Shown here: piece by piece, positions 3,506-31,865 of the stretch
Layout of the letters: every line of letters starts with the position of its first letter
Numbering within the stretch: the first letter of the stretch is position 1
IMG/VR virus record: IMGVR_UViG_3300025704_000077
Coordinates: 1 to 31,865 of that record
Direction: 5' to 3' (one strand)
Source of the DNA: a virus
DNA length: 31,865 bases
Program-made: the position numbers and the translations under genes
The notes under the pieces: model-generated
What the model saw: only the letters and a program-made list of their open reading frames with translations
What the model was told of the DNA's origin: nothing
Database searches by the model: none

Positions 3506-4369
3506 TTAGGCTGATATAAGTTTGGTTAGTTTGGCTAGATTAGACTGGTTAAAAAAGAACCCGTTCTTGGTTTCATCTTGGGCGCGTTCTAGCTTGTTCG
3601 ATCCTTTGCGCTTTAATACACCAACACTGCCTGCAGGATCTAAGAACCGAGCATCCGTATCATCCATATTGATTAAGGGTATCAGGTCAAGCTTCTCAGG
3701 CATTTTATATTCACCCTTGGTTTCAGCAGTGTTAACTGCTAGAACCGTCTTAAAACCGCCTTTAATAGCTCGAGCGGTCATTGTCATTGTTTTATCATTG
3801 TTCGCGCTACCGCTAAATGTGAGATCGTAATTCTTGAGAGTATTCTTTTTAACGCGACTAAAAACCTTGGTGTAATCGTAGAACCTAATAGACGGAAAAT
3901 AAGATATAAAATTATTAAAATCAATATCGGTCGTGCCGTTTAAACGCACCGCTAACGTATCGCCATGGTTGGCATCATGTACGCATATTTCACCGCGTAA
4001 AACTTTAAAGAACCTATCGCGCTCTAATAGATAGCATAGCGTGCGTTTGGTTACCGCCTTTTGTGCCTGAGTCATTCCCAATTGACCGCTTGAAATTAAA
4101 CAATCAGACTTGCACCCAAATAAATCAGCCCCAGCGCATAGCGTTTGACTCGCTACTTTATCAGCGGGTTGCATGTATAAAATAGCGGTGTTGATATTAA
4201 TCTTTTTACCTTTAGATGTTTTGGTGCTACTGTTAACGTTAACTAATGGCGTATTAACTTGCGTTAAATAATCCCAGTTTTTAATTGCCCATGTTTTAAC
4301 AGATGGATTAATTGCGTCACTTGCTAGAAGTGTTTTTTTAGATACTTGTAGTTTCATAATGTGCACCAT
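3506..4369 (-). CDS. GP88-like phage protein with cysteine cluster
   Basis: A 287-residue protein with features of the phage 'gene product 88' family: a cysteine cluster CAGADLFGCKSDC (Cys78, Cys86, Cys90), a following helical part (QAQKAVTKRTLCYLLERDRF), an acidic/polar RLNGTTDIDFNNF stretch and FPSIRFYDYTKVFSR at about 158-172, equivalent to the fYaYTK motif of that family. The biochemical role is unknown; the spaced cysteines suggest metal or Fe-S binding (inference). Two candidate starts, ATG 4369 and ATG 4357 (MKLQVSKK), both lack a Shine-Dalgarno, unlike neighbouring genes. It is preceded by a terminator-like hairpin and followed by Fur-like operators, so it may have its own transcription unit. 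The family call comes from motif memory and is moderate. Confidence 0.6.
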   Translation of the reverse strand: MVHIMKLQVSKKTLLASDAINPSVKTWAIKNWDYLTQVNTPLVNVNSSTKTSKGKKININTAILYMQPADKVASQTLCAGADLFGCKSDCLISSGQLGMTQAQKAVTKRTLCYLLERDRFFKVLRGEICVHDANHGDTLAVRLNGTTDIDFNNFISYFPSIRFYDYTKVFSRVKKNTLKNYDLTFSGSANNDKTMTMTARAIKGGFKTVLAVNTAETKGEYKMPEKLDLIPLINMDDTDARFLDPAGSVGVLKRKGSNKLERAQDETKNGFFFNQSNLAKLTKLISA

Positions 4370-10996: not shown

Positions 10997-13900
10997 TTAA
11001 CCTCCTATAATCTGTGAATAAGTACCCGCTACTTTGGTTATCTGGATGGACTCGCTACTGGTTATTTCTCTAGCTTTAATCTTAAAAGTTCTTTCTGGCT
11101 TATAGTATCCAAGATATATTTGATGAAAGTGGTTCTGAGTAACAGTGGAGTGCGCGTTGTATGCTTCCATAGGATATGTTTCTCCATTGATTTCAGTGCC
11201 TGAAGTTTCCCAATCGAAAGGGTGCAAGTAAACTGTATCACCTACTAAGGGGGTGTTATTTTGATAAGGATTAAACTTAACAGTTGTTCTATCAGTTGTT
11301 GGGTCATACCACCAACTCTGATACTGATCAAAGGCAAAACCATTTGAACCGTCTGAGTTTGTTGACATTCCACAATAAGGTGAGAAATGTTTAGTAAAAT
11401 CACCAGCAACCTTAAAGATGCTCATAGAAGATGTAACAACAGTTCCTAAATTTATAGTTGTTTCGTCTGATGGATTAGGAGCATCAACCGTTATTACAAA
11501 TTCGCCCTCATTTGAAGAGTTAACGTCAAGAAAATTGGCGGTTATGTTTAAATCTAAAACATTTTCAACGTCTGTGGTTACTCCTGAGTTTATACGTAAT
11601 GAATCGCCACATTGTTGCAAGGTGGATGTTAAAGAATTAATATAAACCGTGCTACTATAACCCCGTTTTTGAAAACGCTGTCTAACTGTGCGCTCAATAC
11701 CATCTAACTTAGTCCCATCAGCCGCTACGTCTCTGCCGTCTACTGTACCGCTTACTGCGATGTTACCAACAACGTCTAACTTTTCACTAATACTATTAGT
11801 GCCTGTGTTTATTCCTACGTTGCCTGATGAGTCTATACGCATACGTTCTGTGTTGCTTGTCCATAACGCTAACGGACTTGCTTCACGATTCAACAGGTTT
11901 ACTTGCTTACCTGCTGTAGTACCATTCATTATTATATGAAAGCCATCGCCTGTCCCAGTACCAGTATCAGCATTAGTTAGCTGTATACGAGCATCTGCAT
12001 CTGCTGTTGCTTCGTGTATATGCGCCTCATAGTTAGGACTACTAGTACCTATACCTACTCTGCCATCACCTTTAAGTGTGAGTATGTTATCAGTTGAAGT
12101 TGACCTAAATCCTAAAATGTCGTTTGAAGTAGTAGCGTCTAAATCAGTTTCTATAGTAAATCTATTGCTATTATCAGATGCTCTAAAATACATTCTAGCA
12201 TCGTCAACACCTTCACCGCCTCTAATCGCTAATTCACCATTCACATCTAACGCAGTCGCAGGACTATCAGTACCTATACCTACGTTGCCTGATGAGTCTA
12301 TACGCATGGCTTCAGAGCCAGACATTTTAAAAGCCGCATAGGGTGCAGAGGCTACGCTAGTAGAGTCAAATTCAAAGTTAAACCCACCAACACCACTGCT
12401 TGCGTTAAGCAACATTTGAGTGTTTGTGTCTGTATCTTCTAATTTAATGATAGGTGATGCACTTTCAATATCTAAAGTATAAGCAGGACTACTAGTACCT
12501 ATACCCATATTGCCTGATGAGTCGATAACCGTACGATAAACACCTGCGGAATCATCATAGATACTAAACTTACCGTCAGTGTTAATAATAGAATAGTCTG
12601 AGTTGTTATTAGTATCTGTAAGGTACAAACGAGGTAAAGTAGATTCAATATGAACATCACCAGTAAACGTAGCACCAGTTAACATAGCTGCCCCTGCGGC
12701 AGTTACATTAGCTGTGTCCGTTATGTCTGCGGCTGGTTCTATAGTATCTAACTTAGAACCGTCATAGGCTACGTCTCTTCCTTCTATGTCTCCAGTTACA
12801 TTTAAATCTCCAGAGGAGGTTAATGTTAAGTTTGTTGTAGCCGCAGTACCGACCGAGAAAGTACCATTATCTAAAACATTAAACTTAACTGTGCTATTCG
12901 TACCGTTTGCCTGTAAAGCGATAGCTCGATGGCTAGAATCAGCTTTAATACCTAAAGGAGCATCTGAAGCAGATACATCAGCCATGTCACCTATTGTAGC
13001 CGTGCCAGTAACTTCTATACCCGTAGAGGTTACGTCCAGTATTTCAGTATTCACACCAATACCAGCATCACCACGGGGTATTGTCATGATACCTGTTACA
13101 AGGTTATAAGAAGCGTCTGTCCCAGCTGCCCCTGTCACCACCTGAGTTACGGGAGAAATGTTATCAGCCACTATGTCAATAAGATCACCAGCAGCAGCAG
13201 CAGAGGTTAACACTACTGAAGTACCGTTACTAGCTGTGTAGTCGTTAGCTGCGGGAGCTACTAACCCAGAGCCTACGAGGTTACAAGATTCCCAAGTGTC
13301 TGTAATATCCATCCGATAAACACGAGCACTATAACCGCTATTAAAGAAATCATCATTACATCCCGTATCTTCTAAATCTTCTAAGTCCTCTAAACCAGCT
13401 TCGGTAGCATTCTCATGATACCATTCGTACTGGAAATTAGTTCCAGCGGGTACTTGATATGTCCAAACCCAATCACCGTTAGCCTCTTGTGTAGCTTCAC
13501 CCTCTGACCACATAGTTTGTGTGCCAGCGGGAGTAGGATATGTATCAACCCAATTCCAAAGATTAGAGTGTATCCATATTCCAGTGGCGTTAGGTTTGCC
13601 CGCTAGTCTAAGGGTGACGGTTACGTTTCCGTTACTGTCCGCTGGTGGGGCGGAGTCGAATGTACTAGCTACAAGTTTAACACCATTAAGGTACACATCT
13701 ACGTGACCAGATTCATAGGACATAGGGAATGTTGTTTGTCCTGTTGCAGCCGTGAAAGATTTACGATTAATGGGGTTAGTAATACCAAGAGCAGCGTTCT
13801 GCCAACCGTTAGCTTGATATACCTTTAGTGTGTTAACACTAGAATCAAACCAAAATGCTCCGATCTGTATTGCAGTACCATCAGAGTATGTTGAAGGTGC

Positions 13901-14506
13901 TACGGTATCTGACCCTAAAAAGGTTCTACCGTAGTGGTTTATCCCTGTAGCGTTTGCTGCCGCAGTTTGCACCGCAGCTGAAATCCCCACAACCGAGTTA
14001 ATAGCAGCTTGACCAGCTTCAGTTAGAGCCATAGATATCCAAGCTGAAGCAGAGCGAACCTTCATTACATTAGTAGCAGTGTCAAACCATAAGTCACCCG
14101 CTTCGGGTGTAGGTACTGTAGGAGAGACAGCAGAAGCACCGTAGTACCTAGCGTTGTAGTCACCAGCAATCATCTCAGCTTTATCAAGGGCTTCTTGAGC
14201 TATGTTGAAGATTTGGTTAGAGTCTTGGTCTAGTGTCTCTGCCTTAAGCATTGAACCAGAAGCAAAGTCTACTTGTCTAGCTGCCGATGCTGTCACACGC
14301 CTTATGCTTATCTTATCACCGTTACTGGGGGTGAAGCCAGTATCGAAAGCTACAAGACTACCTGTTAGGGTATAATCTGTACCTTGTGTTTTGACAACAT
14401 CGTTTACCAGAACAACAATGTCACTGGCTTGTTGGTGACTGGGGGCAACAAAGTTGCTTTGCCCCGTGTAGTCGTACTCATTTATAGAGTGTAAAGTGTT
14501 TGTCAT
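10997..14506 (-). CDS. Tail fibre protein (T7 gp17-like N-terminus) with inserted domain
   Basis: A 1169-residue adhesin. Residues 1-110 match the T7 gp17 N-terminal virion-anchoring domain (YTG-SNFVAPS, VLVNDVVKTQGTDYTLTGS, ISIRRVT, LDQDSNQIFNIAQEALDKA). Two AGDLWFD-like and GAFWFDSSVNTLKVY repeats follow. At about 275-281 (GVKLVAS) a standard fibre motif is broken and resumes at 422 (DYTASNGTSVVLTSAAAAGD); between lies a 140-residue insert resembling a carbohydrate-binding beta-sandwich (VTVTLRLAGK, GIWIHSNLWNW, EANGDWVWTYQVPAGTNFQY, three cysteines and LEDLEDLED). The shaft has GNVGIGTDSP/GNMGIGTSSP and GRDVA-DG-KLD-IE repeats. There is no Peptidase_S74 chaperone visible at the C-terminus. 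The repeats are also visible as DNA repeats. Confidence 0.85.
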   Translation of the reverse strand: MTNTLHSINEYDYTGQSNFVAPSHQQASDIVVLVNDVVKTQGTDYTLTGSLVAFDTGFTPSNGDKISIRRVTASAARQVDFASGSMLKAETLDQDSNQIFNIAQEALDKAEMIAGDYNARYYGASAVSPTVPTPEAGDLWFDTATNVMKVRSASAWISMALTEAGQAAINSVVGISAAVQTAAANATGINHYGRTFLGSDTVAPSTYSDGTAIQIGAFWFDSSVNTLKVYQANGWQNAALGITNPINRKSFTAATGQTTFPMSYESGHVDVYLNGVKLVASTFDSAPPADSNGNVTVTLRLAGKPNATGIWIHSNLWNWVDTYPTPAGTQTMWSEGEATQEANGDWVWTYQVPAGTNFQYEWYHENATEAGLEDLEDLEDTGCNDDFFNSGYSARVYRMDITDTWESCNLVGSGLVAPAANDYTASNGTSVVLTSAAAAGDLIDIVADNISPVTQVVTGAAGTDASYNLVTGIMTIPRGDAGIGVNTEILDVTSTGIEVTGTATIGDMADVSASDAPLGIKADSSHRAIALQANGTNSTVKFNVLDNGTFSVGTAATTNLTLTSSGDLNVTGDIEGRDVAYDGSKLDTIEPAADITDTANVTAAGAAMLTGATFTGDVHIESTLPRLYLTDTNNNSDYSIINTDGKFSIYDDSAGVYRTVIDSSGNMGIGTSSPAYTLDIESASPIIKLEDTDTNTQMLLNASSGVGGFNFEFDSTSVASAPYAAFKMSGSEAMRIDSSGNVGIGTDSPATALDVNGELAIRGGEGVDDARMYFRASDNSNRFTIETDLDATTSNDILGFRSTSTDNILTLKGDGRVGIGTSSPNYEAHIHEATADADARIQLTNADTGTGTGDGFHIIMNGTTAGKQVNLLNREASPLALWTSNTERMRIDSSGNVGINTGTNSISEKLDVVGNIAVSGTVDGRDVAADGTKLDGIERTVRQRFQKRGYSSTVYINSLTSTLQQCGDSLRINSGVTTDVENVLDLNITANFLDVNSSNEGEFVITVDAPNPSDETTINLGTVVTSSMSIFKVAGDFTKHFSPYCGMSTNSDGSNGFAFDQYQSWWYDPTTDRTTVKFNPYQNNTPLVGDTVYLHPFDWETSGTEINGETYPMEAYNAHSTVTQNHFHQIYLGYYKPERTFKIKAREITSSESIQITKVAGTYSQIIGG
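11814..12528 (-). repeat. Coding repeats in the fibre shaft
   Basis: A 29-bp sequence occurs identically at 11814-11842 and 12279-12307 and partly again near 12505-12528 (tgcctgatgagtcgata). It encodes the SGNVGIGT shaft motif. A companion, actactagtacctatacc, occurs near 12038 and 12490. Such repeats favour recombination between shaft segments. They are not a CRISPR array, because spacers are coding and unequal. Confidence 0.7.
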
Positions 14507-14518
14507 TTGATTTTCCTA

Positions 14519-17500
14519 TTATTCGCCTGTTAATGAGATGTTTCCACGATTGGTCGAAGCACCAGATTGTAGTAATAATTCAAAGTAGTTCTTATCTTGA
14601 ACTTGACTGTTAAGTTTGTCGTTCTGAAGAATTACAGTATCAAGCGCACGGTTACGTGCATCATTAATTGCTTTTTTCGTTTCAGTTACACGCATACCGT
14701 GTGTCTTAGTATTTAAAGGAGAACCCATAGGTAAGTTGTTTGCTTTAGAATAGAACAGTACGTTCTCAATCAACACCTTATCTTGTGAAAGTTCCTGCAT
14801 CATTGCATCAAACAATGACATATTTTTACCGTTATAAGCGATCTCGATTGTTCGTAAGTCCTTATCAGGGAAACGATCATCTCTTATCTTTTGACGAGTG
14901 AAGTTACCATAACCTAGATTTTCTAACTTAGCTAAGTAATCAAGAGCTGCCATGTGGTCTTTACTTCTACCTTGTGATAAATCTTCAGAAGTAGCTGCAC
15001 CAAAACCAGTAACTTGAGCATAAGATATTTCACGCTCCATAGCCCACCCAAACGTATCGTAACGTCTTGGTAGGGTTGTACTGTAAGGGTTAACAGACCT
15101 GATTAGTTTATCTTTAATACCTACAGGCTGTGTTAAAGGTGCGTTACCTCTTACTGCTTCTTGAAACTTCTTGATAGAGCTAGGAACAATTTGCAGGGTT
15201 TTGTCTAAGACAAAGTCAGCAAACAAGTCTGCTGCTTTCGCTTTATCTTCACCTTCAGGACTTTCCATTAGACCAGTAAAGCGTACCACTGTACCTACTG
15301 TATCAGACACACCTTGTGTTAAGGCAGAGTCACGAATTGCAGAGATAGCTGTAGCAAATCCTACACCAAAGGTAGCCATGATTTCATCAGGGATTCCACC
15401 CTCATCATCAGCAACACCGTCCATGTTCTTCTTCTCTTGATAATCTAAGTAACCTTCAAGAGCGTTCGTTACAATCGTAGCAGGAATACGTAGCGGTTCC
15501 CACCTAGCAAACGAGACTTCTTTGCCACCGTCTAGGAAGAACGGATCTTTAATGGTCAACGGACGCATTGTAGATTTATTCTTTTCCCCTGTCATGGTGT
15601 AGTCAACATTAGGGCTACCTGAGATAGAACCTTCTGCATACTTAGTAATAACGTAAAGCATCCATGAGTAAGCTACTGCTGCTTCTGTTTTAGCTCTCGC
15701 TGCTCTTGCTGCTCCGTTAATACCAGCCATATCATTTCTAAACTGTGGTAGTAGACTGTTCACTGCTGGTGTTAAACGCATAGACTCATGGAACAACCAT
15801 GCTGGTGTTCTAAAGAATAAGTTACCAATAGCACGAGACCAAGCTTTATCTCTTGTCCAGTCCTCGTAAGCTTTCGCCATACGCTCTGGTAACGCTCCGT
15901 CTGCACTAAAGTCTTTCTTATACAATAACGTCTGTACAGAATCTAAAGCAGCTTCGCCTGTCTCTTGTATACTATCAGCTTCTTTTGTAATTGCTTTTGC
16001 TAATCGCATCGCCTCTGGTGTACCTTCTGCAAACAACTTTTGTGCTTGCGCTCTAAGGTCAGCCACTGAAGCCGTATCGTTAAGAGTTTTAAATGCGCCT
16101 TCGCCCATCTTCTTAACTTCTGCATTAACAAAATCTTCTAGGTCTTTACCTGTCTTACCTTTTCTCGCTCCAAGCTCATAGATAGGTTTTAGCTTCTTCT
16201 CTGTAACGTGGAAGTCATAGCCTTTATCAATTTGCTTTTGGATGTTATCATCGATGTACTTCTCAATATCCTTACCTTTAAGACCTTTCTCTAAAGCCTC
16301 ATCTAGTAGACGATCAAAGCCATCTGCTGTTAGACTAGCTACTGCTGCAATCTCTTGGTTAAACGCATCCGATGCACCAACAAGGCGCGGGAAGAAGCGT
16401 AAGAACTTAGCAGTTTCTGTTGATCCTAAGATAGACTCAATCTTAACACCGCCTTCTAAGAAACGCGAAGGATCAGCGGTAAGCATTGTTTGCTCATACC
16501 GTGCAGCAGCTCTTGCAGATACTAATGACGCTTGTAGCGACCCTTGCATCTGTGAGTAGATTTTAAGACTCTTCTTCCAAGCCATACGGTTCAGTGGATC
16601 ACTGATAATCGTATCAAGCATTGGGTAGAAGGCTACCTTCATTGCTGGGAACACAGTGTTGTAGATAATAGTAGAAGGACTGAATACGCCTGAGATAGAA
16701 GCTTCTAAGAACTTCTCATCTAGTCTAGCTTTAGGTTTAACACCTACGGTACGTTCAATGTCTAGCTCTGCCATCTCATCCAGTATTCGTTGGAACTCTG
16801 GATCAGCATCACGCAGCTCGCGTAACTTAGTTGCACCTTCGTAGTCCTTAGCCTTTAACGCTTTGTCTACTTCTACATCATGTTCGTCTATAATCTTTTG
16901 TAGCTTTCTGTTGTAAACTTTTTGAGAAGCACTCTTCACTGCCGCTTCGTAATCAAACTCTTTACCTTCCGCATCAGCAATCTTTTTGCGATACGTCATA
17001 AAGTCTTGAATCTCTTGTAAGTTTCTACCAGAGTAAGCATTAGCGTGTTTACGCAACATACCAGTTAGTTCCGCTATGTTCTGCGCTGCTTCTAAATCCA
17101 TTTTTAATTTATTCAGTTCTGCATCTGAAATGTTCTTTGTCATCAAACCTTCGATAACATTTAAGTCAGCACCAGCTAGTTCATCTGCTGCATTGATCTG
17201 ACGTAAGATGTCGCTAAACTCTTCAGGTGTGTACTGATGTGTTTCAAAATCATTTATAAAACGCTCTAGTGATCCTTCAGGATTGGTTTTCATTTCCTCA
17301 AAGATGTTGTGAGCGTGTGTGAATACTTTAGGACTAATACGAGCCTTCGGTGGACGAGGGTCGATAGTTTCTTTTGGTTTAACCTTAGCCTTGGTTTTAA
17401 TTACTTTAGGTTTATTATAAGTTACACGTACAGTATTATTACCAGCTTTAGCTTTAGTTTTAATATCAAGTCTTATCTGCGCTGCTTGTGAATCAATGTC

Positions 17501-18748
17501 CTTAACACCAGCATCCTCTAAAAACTTTCTATATTCTTTATAGAAGCGGCTCTTTGATTTTGAACCCATTTGATAAAGTACACGGGCTACGTCATCATCA
17601 AAAAGTAAATCAATAGCTCTGTCACCATAGTTGTATCTAGGCTTAGAACCTTTTAACTCATTTGGTAGTTTAGGGGCTGTCCATACGCCAGCATCTTCTG
17701 CTGCGCCTTCATCAACCTGATCCTTAATAACTTTATCAATCTCTGTAGCGGGTACTTCATCATCCACTGCTTTAGTAATAATAGTATCAGCTTCTGCTTT
17801 TGCATCCGCTAGTTTCTTCTCAGCTAGTATCTGTTTTGCTACCGCTGCTTCATCATTCTTTTTAGCAGCCGCTGCAATCTTAGGTTCGTAATACTTACTC
17901 GCCATTTTACCGACACCGTAGTTTAGTGCAGTACCAATAGCAGCTCCACCAGCAAGACCTATAGTACCCATTAGTAAGGTACGTGAAGTGTCATACTCGT
18001 CTTGTGACCCTGCATCAATTCTAACGTTCTGCATCATCGCATCAGAAGCCATAGCGTGTGCTGCACCTTCTGTACCAGCTAACGCCCCTACTCTTTTAGC
18101 AGAGGTGTTGATACCAACTTTAGCAGCAGCTTCGACAGACTTAGCACTAGCTTTCTTAAGCGATGCTTTTACTGTTTGTCTTAAGGCTTCCTTACCAGCA
18201 AGCTTTGCTGCTTGTCCTGCTACAGCCGATGTACCAAGAGTAGCTAGACCTAACCAGTTAGTTACGTCTGTCATCATCTCCCAGCCAGCTTGACCAGTTG
18301 TGTGCCAGCTCATGTTAACAGCGTCATACTGATCTAACATATAGACAAAGGCTTCTTTAGTTTTCTGGTCTGCCTTCATCACTCTTGACGAGTCAATCGC
18401 CATATCACCAATGTTGTAGTTAAACCCTGCCATCTGTTTCAGACCGTAGTCTGCTAACTTCTCACGGTAAGATTCACCACTGTAACCTTCTAGCTCCTTG
18501 TCACCTTTCTGGGGTACATACCCATAGGTCATTTCAAAGAAGTGTTGAGAAGACTTAATCCAATCATCTTTCTGATGGAGGTCAGTCCACTCAACGTCTT
18601 GTTCAATAACACCAAAAGGTGTGTAGCCTTGTTCTGGTTCTATGACAGGTTGCTCATTGCTTAACGATGAAAGTTCTCCAAGATAATCTCTTTCCTTATC
18701 TTCGTCTTCCAAAGCGTTAAGCTCTGCTAGATAATCTCTGTCTGCCAT
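14519..18748 (-). CDS. Internal virion protein D (T7 gp16-like, ejection protein)
   Basis: A 1409-residue protein in the place of T7 gp16, which is released into the cell at infection and forms part of the DNA-translocating channel. It starts with two DRDYLAELNAL / ERDYLGELSSL repeats and has hydrophobic segments near residues 165-185 (NWLGLATLGTSAVAGQAA) and about 255-280 (LLMGTIGLAGGAAIGTALNY), long charged helical stretches (AKAEADTIITKAVDDE, KPKVIKTKAKVKPKE) and a helical C-terminus. Unlike T7 gp16 I see no lytic transglycosylase motif at the N-terminus. AGGAG precedes the ATG. Confidence 0.8.
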   Translation of the reverse strand: MADRDYLAELNALEDEDKERDYLGELSSLSNEQPVIEPEQGYTPFGVIEQDVEWTDLHQKDDWIKSSQHFFEMTYGYVPQKGDKELEGYSGESYREKLADYGLKQMAGFNYNIGDMAIDSSRVMKADQKTKEAFVYMLDQYDAVNMSWHTTGQAGWEMMTDVTNWLGLATLGTSAVAGQAAKLAGKEALRQTVKASLKKASAKSVEAAAKVGINTSAKRVGALAGTEGAAHAMASDAMMQNVRIDAGSQDEYDTSRTLLMGTIGLAGGAAIGTALNYGVGKMASKYYEPKIAAAAKKNDEAAVAKQILAEKKLADAKAEADTIITKAVDDEVPATEIDKVIKDQVDEGAAEDAGVWTAPKLPNELKGSKPRYNYGDRAIDLLFDDDVARVLYQMGSKSKSRFYKEYRKFLEDAGVKDIDSQAAQIRLDIKTKAKAGNNTVRVTYNKPKVIKTKAKVKPKETIDPRPPKARISPKVFTHAHNIFEEMKTNPEGSLERFINDFETHQYTPEEFSDILRQINAADELAGADLNVIEGLMTKNISDAELNKLKMDLEAAQNIAELTGMLRKHANAYSGRNLQEIQDFMTYRKKIADAEGKEFDYEAAVKSASQKVYNRKLQKIIDEHDVEVDKALKAKDYEGATKLRELRDADPEFQRILDEMAELDIERTVGVKPKARLDEKFLEASISGVFSPSTIIYNTVFPAMKVAFYPMLDTIISDPLNRMAWKKSLKIYSQMQGSLQASLVSARAAARYEQTMLTADPSRFLEGGVKIESILGSTETAKFLRFFPRLVGASDAFNQEIAAVASLTADGFDRLLDEALEKGLKGKDIEKYIDDNIQKQIDKGYDFHVTEKKLKPIYELGARKGKTGKDLEDFVNAEVKKMGEGAFKTLNDTASVADLRAQAQKLFAEGTPEAMRLAKAITKEADSIQETGEAALDSVQTLLYKKDFSADGALPERMAKAYEDWTRDKAWSRAIGNLFFRTPAWLFHESMRLTPAVNSLLPQFRNDMAGINGAARAARAKTEAAVAYSWMLYVITKYAEGSISGSPNVDYTMTGEKNKSTMRPLTIKDPFFLDGGKEVSFARWEPLRIPATIVTNALEGYLDYQEKKNMDGVADDEGGIPDEIMATFGVGFATAISAIRDSALTQGVSDTVGTVVRFTGLMESPEGEDKAKAADLFADFVLDKTLQIVPSSIKKFQEAVRGNAPLTQPVGIKDKLIRSVNPYSTTLPRRYDTFGWAMEREISYAQVTGFGAATSEDLSQGRSKDHMAALDYLAKLENLGYGNFTRQKIRDDRFPDKDLRTIEIAYNGKNMSLFDAMMQELSQDKVLIENVLFYSKANNLPMGSPLNTKTHGMRVTETKKAINDARNRALDTVILQNDKLNSQVQDKNYFELLLQSGASTNRGNISLTGE

Positions 18749-30059: not shown

Positions 30060-31865
30060 CTATATTTCGCATGAACCTGACGAGCAAGCCAACTCCTGAG
30101 TTCCAGTAGTGGTGTCCTCTTTTTCATAGTCTCCAAGCCTGTCCCAATCAATCTCTGATGGGGTCTCTCGTTTCAGTTCCATATACTTGTCCTTATCTAT
30201 AGCTTCATAAGGAGCTTGAGCATACACATGGTCAGTACGGGGTAGGAAGCTAATGCCAGAACAACTGTCTAAGCGTTCCCATAACCATTGCCCTGCCGCA
30301 AGGAACTCATCATCAGAGTAGTAGATGGTTACACTAGGTTTATGTTCACACCAGTGCTCCTGATATATCTCCCACAAATCTAACTGCTGTTGTACATTAA
30401 GTTCGTTCACACAGGTTGCACCCTTTGGTGCTTGTACAGGGAAGTCAAACACATAGTTCTCTGTGTTCATTACATCCTTCTCCCACGACACGCCCGCATC
30501 TTTTAGGAATGCAGAGATAGGGTCTTTCCCATCGCTTCGTACTCGTCTTATATAATAAGGAGAGAACCTAGCATGAATACCACTAGCACTGTCTACTAAT
30601 TGAGACACTGTGCCTGACGGCTTCACACACGTAATGGCTGTTGATTGGTTAACACCTAACTCAGCCGCGAACGCTTTGTTGGTTTGTACCGCAATCTTCT
30701 TCAGCTTCTCTAGTGTATCCTTTAGTGTAACTAAGCTACCCTTACCTGATAACAACTTGTGATCCATGATGCCTGTCATACTTACACCAAGCAAACATTC
30801 TTCTTCTGTGTTCTTCTTCCAGACAGAACGTACATACCTAAAGTCAGTTAGTGTTGACTGTAGTGTCCCCAGTATCGCAGCTAGTCGAGTCTTACGCTCT
30901 AGTGATTCTTGTGTATCATCAGCACGTACTACAATCTCAGACAAGTTACACACCTGTGCCGAGCGTAGGACAATCTCACTACAAGGGTTTGTGCCAAAGT
31001 CGTGGTCTATATCTCTACGTCCATTTCTCGCTGCTTGTTTCTTTGCAGCAGTTCGGGAGAAGATGCCACGCTCTCCAGCCTTAGACTTATAGAGTGCTAA
31101 CCATTCTTCCAAAAAGGTTTCATACTCAGGCTTCTCTTCGTACACGGCACTGTTGTTTGCCAAGGCTCTTTGTGTTTGCGTTTCCCACCAATTCCCAGAC
31201 TTCGCATGACGCATACGATCATCAGACAAGTTAGATAGAGAGATGAGAGCAGACCTACGCACACCACCAACAACAACAATCTCAGCAACCTTACAAACAA
31301 TGTCATGACATTCAATACTCGTTAGCTTACGTCCAGCAGCGTTCTTGAAAGTAGCAACAGTAAAGTCGAACAGCCTAACCAAAGGATCAGCCCCGCTCGA
31401 TCTGCCACCAAACGTCTTAAGCCGTGCACCTTTAGCCCGTAACTTAGAGACATCCCAAGTAGGCACTTGACCCGAATACAAAAGACTAACCAACTCACGG
31501 AAAGCTTTAGCCCAACCAATCTTACTGTCTGCAACATGGATTGTAGTTTCTGTTTCATAAAAGTCCTCACTTATGGTTGGTAGTTTAGCAACAGACTGTC
31601 TCTCTACGGAGAACCCTACGCCTGTGCCACACATTAATACATATAATATCTCATCAAATACTCTGGGGTTATCAACTGCTATGTAACTACAGTTAAACCC
31701 TGCCATGTTATCTCGCTTAAGTGCGTCACCCGCTGTCATAAGACAACGCATGGATGGCATAATCTCTTGCCTGTGTATTGCACTAAACAATTCCTTAGCA
31801 AGTTTATCGTCTATCTGTCCACGCTCTAACCAGAAGTCGATGTACCGCTGTACAGTTTCTTTCCA
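30060..31865 (-). CDS. nrdJ: Class II (adenosylcobalamin-dependent) ribonucleotide reductase, 5' end cut
   Basis: The frame is open to the window edge (601 visible residues), so the N-terminus is missing. It closely follows the monomeric RTPR type: IMPSMRCLMTAGDALKRDNM, AGFNCSYIAVDNPRVFDEIL, MCGTGVGFSVERQSVAKLP, NPCSEIVLRSAQVCNLSEIV and KPSGTVSQLVDSASGIHARF. The first active-site cysteine is in NCSY, the radical-bearing cysteine in NPCSE, its redox partner in QVCNLS, and a C-terminal thiol pair in ACSSGSCEI. It makes dNTPs without oxygen or a separate radical subunit, needing host cobalamin, and supplies DNA synthesis. Placement between replication and structural genes is common in marine podoviruses. 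Confidence 0.95.
   Translation of the reverse strand, partial: WKETVQRYIDFWLERGQIDDKLAKELFSAIHRQEIMPSMRCLMTAGDALKRDNMAGFNCSYIAVDNPRVFDEILYVLMCGTGVGFSVERQSVAKLPTISEDFYETETTIHVADSKIGWAKAFRELVSLLYSGQVPTWDVSKLRAKGARLKTFGGRSSGADPLVRLFDFTVATFKNAAGRKLTSIECHDIVCKVAEIVVVGGVRRSALISLSNLSDDRMRHAKSGNWWETQTQRALANNSAVYEEKPEYETFLEEWLALYKSKAGERGIFSRTAAKKQAARNGRRDIDHDFGTNPCSEIVLRSAQVCNLSEIVVRADDTQESLERKTRLAAILGTLQSTLTDFRYVRSVWKKNTEEECLLGVSMTGIMDHKLLSGKGSLVTLKDTLEKLKKIAVQTNKAFAAELGVNQSTAITCVKPSGTVSQLVDSASGIHARFSPYYIRRVRSDGKDPISAFLKDAGVSWEKDVMNTENYVFDFPVQAPKGATCVNELNVQQQLDLWEIYQEHWCEHKPSVTIYYSDDEFLAAGQWLWERLDSCSGISFLPRTDHVYAQAPYEAIDKDKYMELKRETPSEIDWDRLGDYEKEDTTTGTQELACSSGSCEI

Follow-up and report, generated by a model that had tools for sequence, protein, structure and literature searches.

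A likely CBM20-related domain, present in zero, one or two copies, occupies a loop in the T7-type tail fibres of related phages

The window analysed here comprises the 31,865 bases of the IMG/VR record IMGVR_UViG_3300025704_000077, which may be a fragment, and encodes T7-type structural proteins that include a terminase (PF22530), a head–tail connector (PF12236) and a PF03906-containing tail fibre, as identified with Pfam. The terminase shares 62% identity with its counterpart in Roseobacter phage CRP-227 and 59% with the one in Ayaqvirus S45C18, both of which are filed under Autographiviridae; with a T7-type terminase and connector near those of classified members, the window phage is Autographiviridae-like. 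Ranked by terminase similarity, the nearest five named phages are marine and the sixth is a Pseudomonas aeruginosa phage; the window phage is T7-like and probably marine. A scan of bacterial genomes also returned a single terminase relative, of 58% identity, in a Comamonadaceae MAG, which we took as no evidence on the host. Elsewhere, the window contains a GP88-family gene (3506–4369, minus strand; PF17338, E 2e-22) and part of a gene for a B12-dependent ribonucleotide reductase (30060–31865, minus strand; PF02867, PF21995) that is cut by the window end.

The tail fibre gene contains no internal stop (Table 1). Its assignment to the T7 type rests on the N-terminal PF03906 domain and on the position of the gene next to that of an internal virion protein, an order also found in HTVC119P; the neighbouring ORF (14519–18748) is called an internal virion protein by position only and is without a Pfam hit. 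In the N-terminal third of the fibre protein, far from its C-terminal end, lies a unit that is common in the fibres of marine phages and reads VYLNGVKL-loop-NDYTA.NGTSVVLT. A preliminary description of the sequence had proposed that this unit is split after GVKLVAS by an extra segment, and our alignments, in which the unit is intact in relatives, confirmed both the split and its interval: the insert sits in the loop and extends from residue 282 (nt 13663–13661) to residue 420 (nt 13249–13247), and the 45 amino acids from residue 422 onwards are 76% identical to the corresponding stretches of two related contigs (L002 and L004).

Table 1 Features of the tail fibre gene in the window
Feature	Residues	Position (nt)	Strand	Basis
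T7-type tail fibre gene, 1169 aa		10997..14506	-	ORF; PF03906 Phage_T7_tail, E 2e-11; PHROG tail fibre families
T7 tail-fibre N-terminal domain	26-111	14174..14431	-	PF03906, 44.3 bits against a cut-off of 25.2
Split fibre unit, first half ending GVKLVAS	243-281	13664..13780	-	Aligned to the intact units of L003, L004, L006 and L007
Inserted segment, replaces short loop	282-420	13247..13663	-	Absent from L003-L007; present in L002 (two copies) and L010
CBM20-related domain proper (likely)	289-414	13265..13642	-	Copy alignment; hhalign to CBM20; AlphaFold2 model
Split fibre unit, second half NDYTASNGTSVVLT...	421-465	13112..13246	-	Alignment with uninterrupted units

A scan of IMG/VR with the N-terminus of the fibre returned seven loci, one of which (L008) is truncated after 43 residues. 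In five of these relatives (L003–L007) the unit is intact and its loop, of 11–12 residues, is empty, with L004 and L005 being identical across the unit and possibly one virus. In L002, by contrast, the loop is 276 residues long and contains two tandem copies of the domain, and a further contig (L010), found with a profile of the copies, carries a single diverged copy in the same loop. The loop can be read in eight contigs, the window included, and three of them have the domain; as the domain was what led to L010, this ratio is not a frequency. Among the six readable loci of the unbiased fibre N-terminus set, one has it. A separate scan of IMG/VR with the empty unit yielded 399 relatives, 80 of which were kept; the loop pattern fits 49 of the 80, each with a loop of 6–12 residues, and the other 31 do not fit our text pattern for the unit. 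Since such a scan ranks uninterrupted units first, it does not measure how often the insert occurs. Among the fibres of five named phages that we inspected, the unit with a short loop is present in three, and the text pattern did not find the unit in HTVC304P or CRP-227. The three are those of pelagiphages HTVC119P and HTVC025P and roseophage CRP-1, which share the unit with the window fibre (e.g. VYLNGVKL...DFTATSGTSIVLT) but, unlike it, have no inserted domain in the loop.

Additional carriers were not recovered from IMG/VR either in an initial scan with the window copy alone or in repeat scans with a four-copy query and with the N-terminus of the L010 fibre. Likewise, among 85 stretches from IMG/VR contigs encoding GDWVWT, the profile matched well only the two known contigs, the next-best match having an E value of 0.011 across 24 positions. 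L002 and L010 have the domain at the loop position where the window has it, which makes a chimera or accident of assembly an unlikely source of the insert. The loop of 11–12 residues in the unit of five relatives means, in turn, that the insert cannot be regarded as an ordinary segment of the fibre shaft. The loop counts in the relatives also bear on the domain gain that had been proposed from the window sequence: a whole domain is inserted in the unit, and relatives with empty, single and double states exist, which makes the short loop the probable ancestral state and the domain a gain, with losses possible.

The four copies of the domain share 37–54% protein identity. The closest are the two in L002 (54%), which suggests that this tandem pair arose by duplication within the L002 lineage. 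The contigs are otherwise close over the neighbouring large ORF, which over 260 residues is 95% (L010), 93% (L006) and 92% (L002) identical to that of the window, and yet their loops contain one, zero and two copies, respectively. In comparisons with the window, the inserts of L002 are about 45% identical versus 80% for the fibre before the loop, and the insert of L010 is 39% identical versus 54%. The GC content of the window insert (0.46, against 0.42 for the fibre) gives no strong sign of a recent foreign origin. Residues invariant in all four copies are W29, W31, W58, W60, W74, C95 and C120 (domain numbering). The end of the insert had been described as cysteine-rich; it has two cysteines only (C383 and C408 of the fibre), and both are present in every copy.

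Other domains were encountered in these relatives. The PF01391 collagen repeat matches the fibre of L010 (1619–4813, E 2e-11) and, below the cut-off, that of L002 (1474–5121, E 0.003), and Pfam gave no match to it in the window fibre. L097 (7372–10272) and L100 (7544–10768) each contain, beyond ORFs for an internal-protein-like product and a probable fibre, a large ORF that combines a subtilase domain (PF00082; E 7e-12 in L097 and 9e-23 in L100) with cadherin-type domains and, in L097, an invasin D3 domain; a protease at this place seems unusual for a T7-like phage.

To relate the insert to known families, we compared a profile of the four copies with five CBM20 sequences using hhalign, and obtained a probability of 89.6 and a score of 39.3 over 76 columns. 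The reversed profile scored 17.5, and 300 column shuffles had a mean of 11.8 and a maximum of 25.0, with none of the 300 reaching 39.3. Consistent with this, 194 single-sequence tiles from nine proteins were scored against CBM20, and each of the 12 highest-scoring overlapped an insert in one of the three fibres. Fifteen tiles have at least 50 residues in an insert, and all but three of them are in that top group; the best tile from outside an insert scored 19.96, the controls including tiles of the relatives' cadherin-bearing ORFs. Against glucoamylase alone, the hhalign probability was 44–50. A search of the PDB with hmmsearch and the four-copy profile produced eight matches, the best two of which are CBM20 modules, albeit with weak E values (1ac0, 0.053; 1qho, 0.098); the remaining six are C-type lectins and complement C7, at E 0.55 and worse with about 55 positions aligned. 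A three-copy profile had a single match, to 1qho (E 0.34). For comparison, a CBM20 query itself finds only 54 matches at E ≤0.0025 among the 177,635 distinct sequences of the PDB. The insert shares with the CBM20 modules of Aspergillus glucoamylase (1ac0) and Bacillus maltogenic amylase (1qho) the motifs 'L..W' and 'W..t..vPAG..F.Y.' and a following E; it differs from them in a longer C-terminal stretch, in its two conserved cysteines and in being carried by a phage fibre and not by an amylase.

This similarity is remote. The CBM_20 family (PF00686) matches one of the four copies, at an E value (0.032) too weak for membership, so that the copies lie below its curated cut-off, and it has no match at E ≤10 in the window as a whole; for the window copy, Pfam, PHROGs and NCBIfam offer no matching CBM family. 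The weak matches of that copy in Pfam (RE_TaqI and Importin_rep) and in the PDB (a tailspike, E 1, and a DC-SIGN chain, E 9.7) we regarded as chance.

The predicted fold points in the same direction. An AlphaFold2 model built with the four copies as input is all-beta, with eight strands and medium confidence (pLDDT 59, pTM 0.55); in blocks of ten residues, pLDDT is 64–84 over residues 1–30 and 41–80 and mostly below 50 over residues 82–126. (A single-sequence model, with a pLDDT of 42, was discarded.) In Foldseek, alpha-glucan enzymes account for nine of the top 11 rows, with a best E value of 0.008 and none at or below 0.001, and adhesin (ester-bond) domains occupy rows 6 and 9. In VIA, all of the top ten rows are alpha-glucan-binding proteins, five of them distinct, at Z 6.1 or less, where rows within 1 count as tied and a Z below 8 may reflect just a common arrangement; interleukin-2 receptor and complement chains are close behind at Z 5.3. 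The alpha-glucan modules ranked first in these searches are those of Amy12, pullulanases, CBM25, CBM41, the CBM48 of AMPK, and SEX4. A search of BFVD gave nothing clear; in these fold searches, absence from a listing does not amount to exclusion. The insert is a self-contained domain, with a probable beta-sandwich fold. The preliminary description, which had likened the segment to E-set and CBM domains, is confirmed in its observation and partly supported in its interpretation: the CBM20 profile match with its controls argues for the likeness, and the all-beta model, whose CBM-type neighbours are accompanied by Ig-like folds, is just suggestive. Each of these lines is weak or medium alone, and together they make it likely that the insert is a CBM20-related domain, with the sequence profile and its controls weighing most heavily.

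We next consider the ligand. CBM20 ligand site 1, which consists of two tryptophans and a lysine, is only half kept. In the hhalign alignment, glucoamylase W543 lies opposite W31 and W563 opposite W58, two tryptophans that are invariant in the four copies; the first site-1 tryptophan is present in all four. The second is present in none, glucoamylase W590 being matched by L, F, A or R; one of the four has the lysine, the residues opposite K578 being E, R, K and Y. Since the site is incomplete in the copies, binding of alpha-glucan cannot be assumed, and because the second tryptophan is missing the ligand need not be starch. The invariant W29 is an additional candidate contact.

We found no bacterial donor of the domain in the material searched. 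A pattern search of bacterial genomes gave 47 matches, none of them a relative of the domain, and a search of plasmids gave no match; in an even draw of 398 Pseudomonadota genomes, eight had a profile match (E 0.008–0.096), and the four loci that were inspected have partial alignments and look like chance. Among named phages, the domain had no match better than about E 1.6.

Insertions of CBMs in phage tails are already known, and what is new here is the protein, the phage type and the site. Lactococcal P335 phages have CBM insertions in 'evolved' Dit proteins, and their Tal and NPS proteins contain CBM-like domains (PMC9692632). Much as with the domain described here, a loop of a structural tail protein accommodates a CBM in certain phages and lacks it in others; the difference is that the P335 proteins are the Dit, Tal and NPS of siphophages of Gram-positive hosts, whereas here the carrier is a T7-type fibre, and not a Dit with a CBM in its galectin loop, and the domain is nearest CBM20. 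Alpha-glucan-type modules in phage tails also have a precedent: the best structural match of one BK5-T Tal domain is a CBM that recognises alpha-1,4-glucan (PMC9692632). In a second system, the CBM-bearing Gp119 of Vp4 decorates host cells in a GFP assay and its CBM-less homologue, Gp177 of Deep-Blue, does not (PMC11406892). Here again a tail protein with CBMs has a homologue that lacks them, but Gp119 is the baseplate wedge of a Bacillus myophage, has a CBM16-like fold and was tested experimentally. In the sections of the open-access literature available to us we found no report of a CBM20 fold used in this manner in a T7-type fibre.

Taken together, the balance of the evidence leans towards the domain being a CBM20-related, probably glycan-binding module that was gained in a loop of a T7-type fibre and serves adsorption. 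The domain, lodged in the loop of a repeated-type unit of the fibre, would project sideways as an extra head with a putative glycan-binding role. A T7 virion has six fibres, each of them a trimer, and one insert would therefore provide 18 weak putative sites and a tandem pair 36. Such sites could mediate reversible, multivalent attachment to a host surface polysaccharide or a cell-associated glucan ahead of engagement by the fibre tip, and the domain would probably be a swappable, sugar-gripping module. A more tentative extension, which we think has something to recommend it but would not wager on, is that a probably marine short-tailed lineage captured a domain of the starch- or glycogen-binding type, that zero, one or two copies make a module of tunable avidity, and that the site has been retuned from alpha-glucan to fast-changing polysaccharides of host surfaces.

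Adsorption is not the only role that such a domain might have. A CBM20-type fold could be purely structural, a spacer or stabilising decoration of the fibre without a ligand, as many virion Ig-like domains may be, and the half-kept ligand site, the distance of the insertion from the C-terminal end of the fibre and the dispensability of the domain in five relatives would all fit. We consider this unlikely, though worth keeping in mind, given that five tryptophans are invariant at 37–54% identity between copies, even if some are surely core residues, and that the duplication in L002 and the strong divergence fit a binding role better, without either of them amounting to proof. Less probable still is that the domain anchors virions to gels or to alpha-glucans that are algal or bound to particles, in places where hosts collect, and not to a host receptor; the relation to alpha-glucan-binding domains in the profile, PDB, Foldseek and VIA comparisons and the marine origin of the five named phages closest by terminase speak for such environmental adhesion, but the alpha-glucan site is incomplete and the sixth nearest terminase belongs to a P. 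aeruginosa phage. Comparably improbable is a beta-sandwich of another lineage, such as an adhesin-type Ig-like domain, that came to resemble CBM20 by convergence and binds protein or nothing. The adhesin ester-bond domains at Foldseek ranks 6 and 9, and the VIA Z values below 8 with Ig-like chains close behind, are what convergence might produce; the CBM20 profile match, however, is well over its shuffled, reversed and non-insert controls.

To our knowledge, the receptors of ocean podoviruses are mostly unknown. A discrete, expressible domain whose copy number ranges from zero to two among closely related phages offers a ready test of whether side-domains of the fibre, and not just its tips, set adsorption. 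If the glycan-binding reading is true, tail CBMs, which have been described in siphophages and myophages with Gram-positive hosts, would extend to the fibres of T7-type phages.
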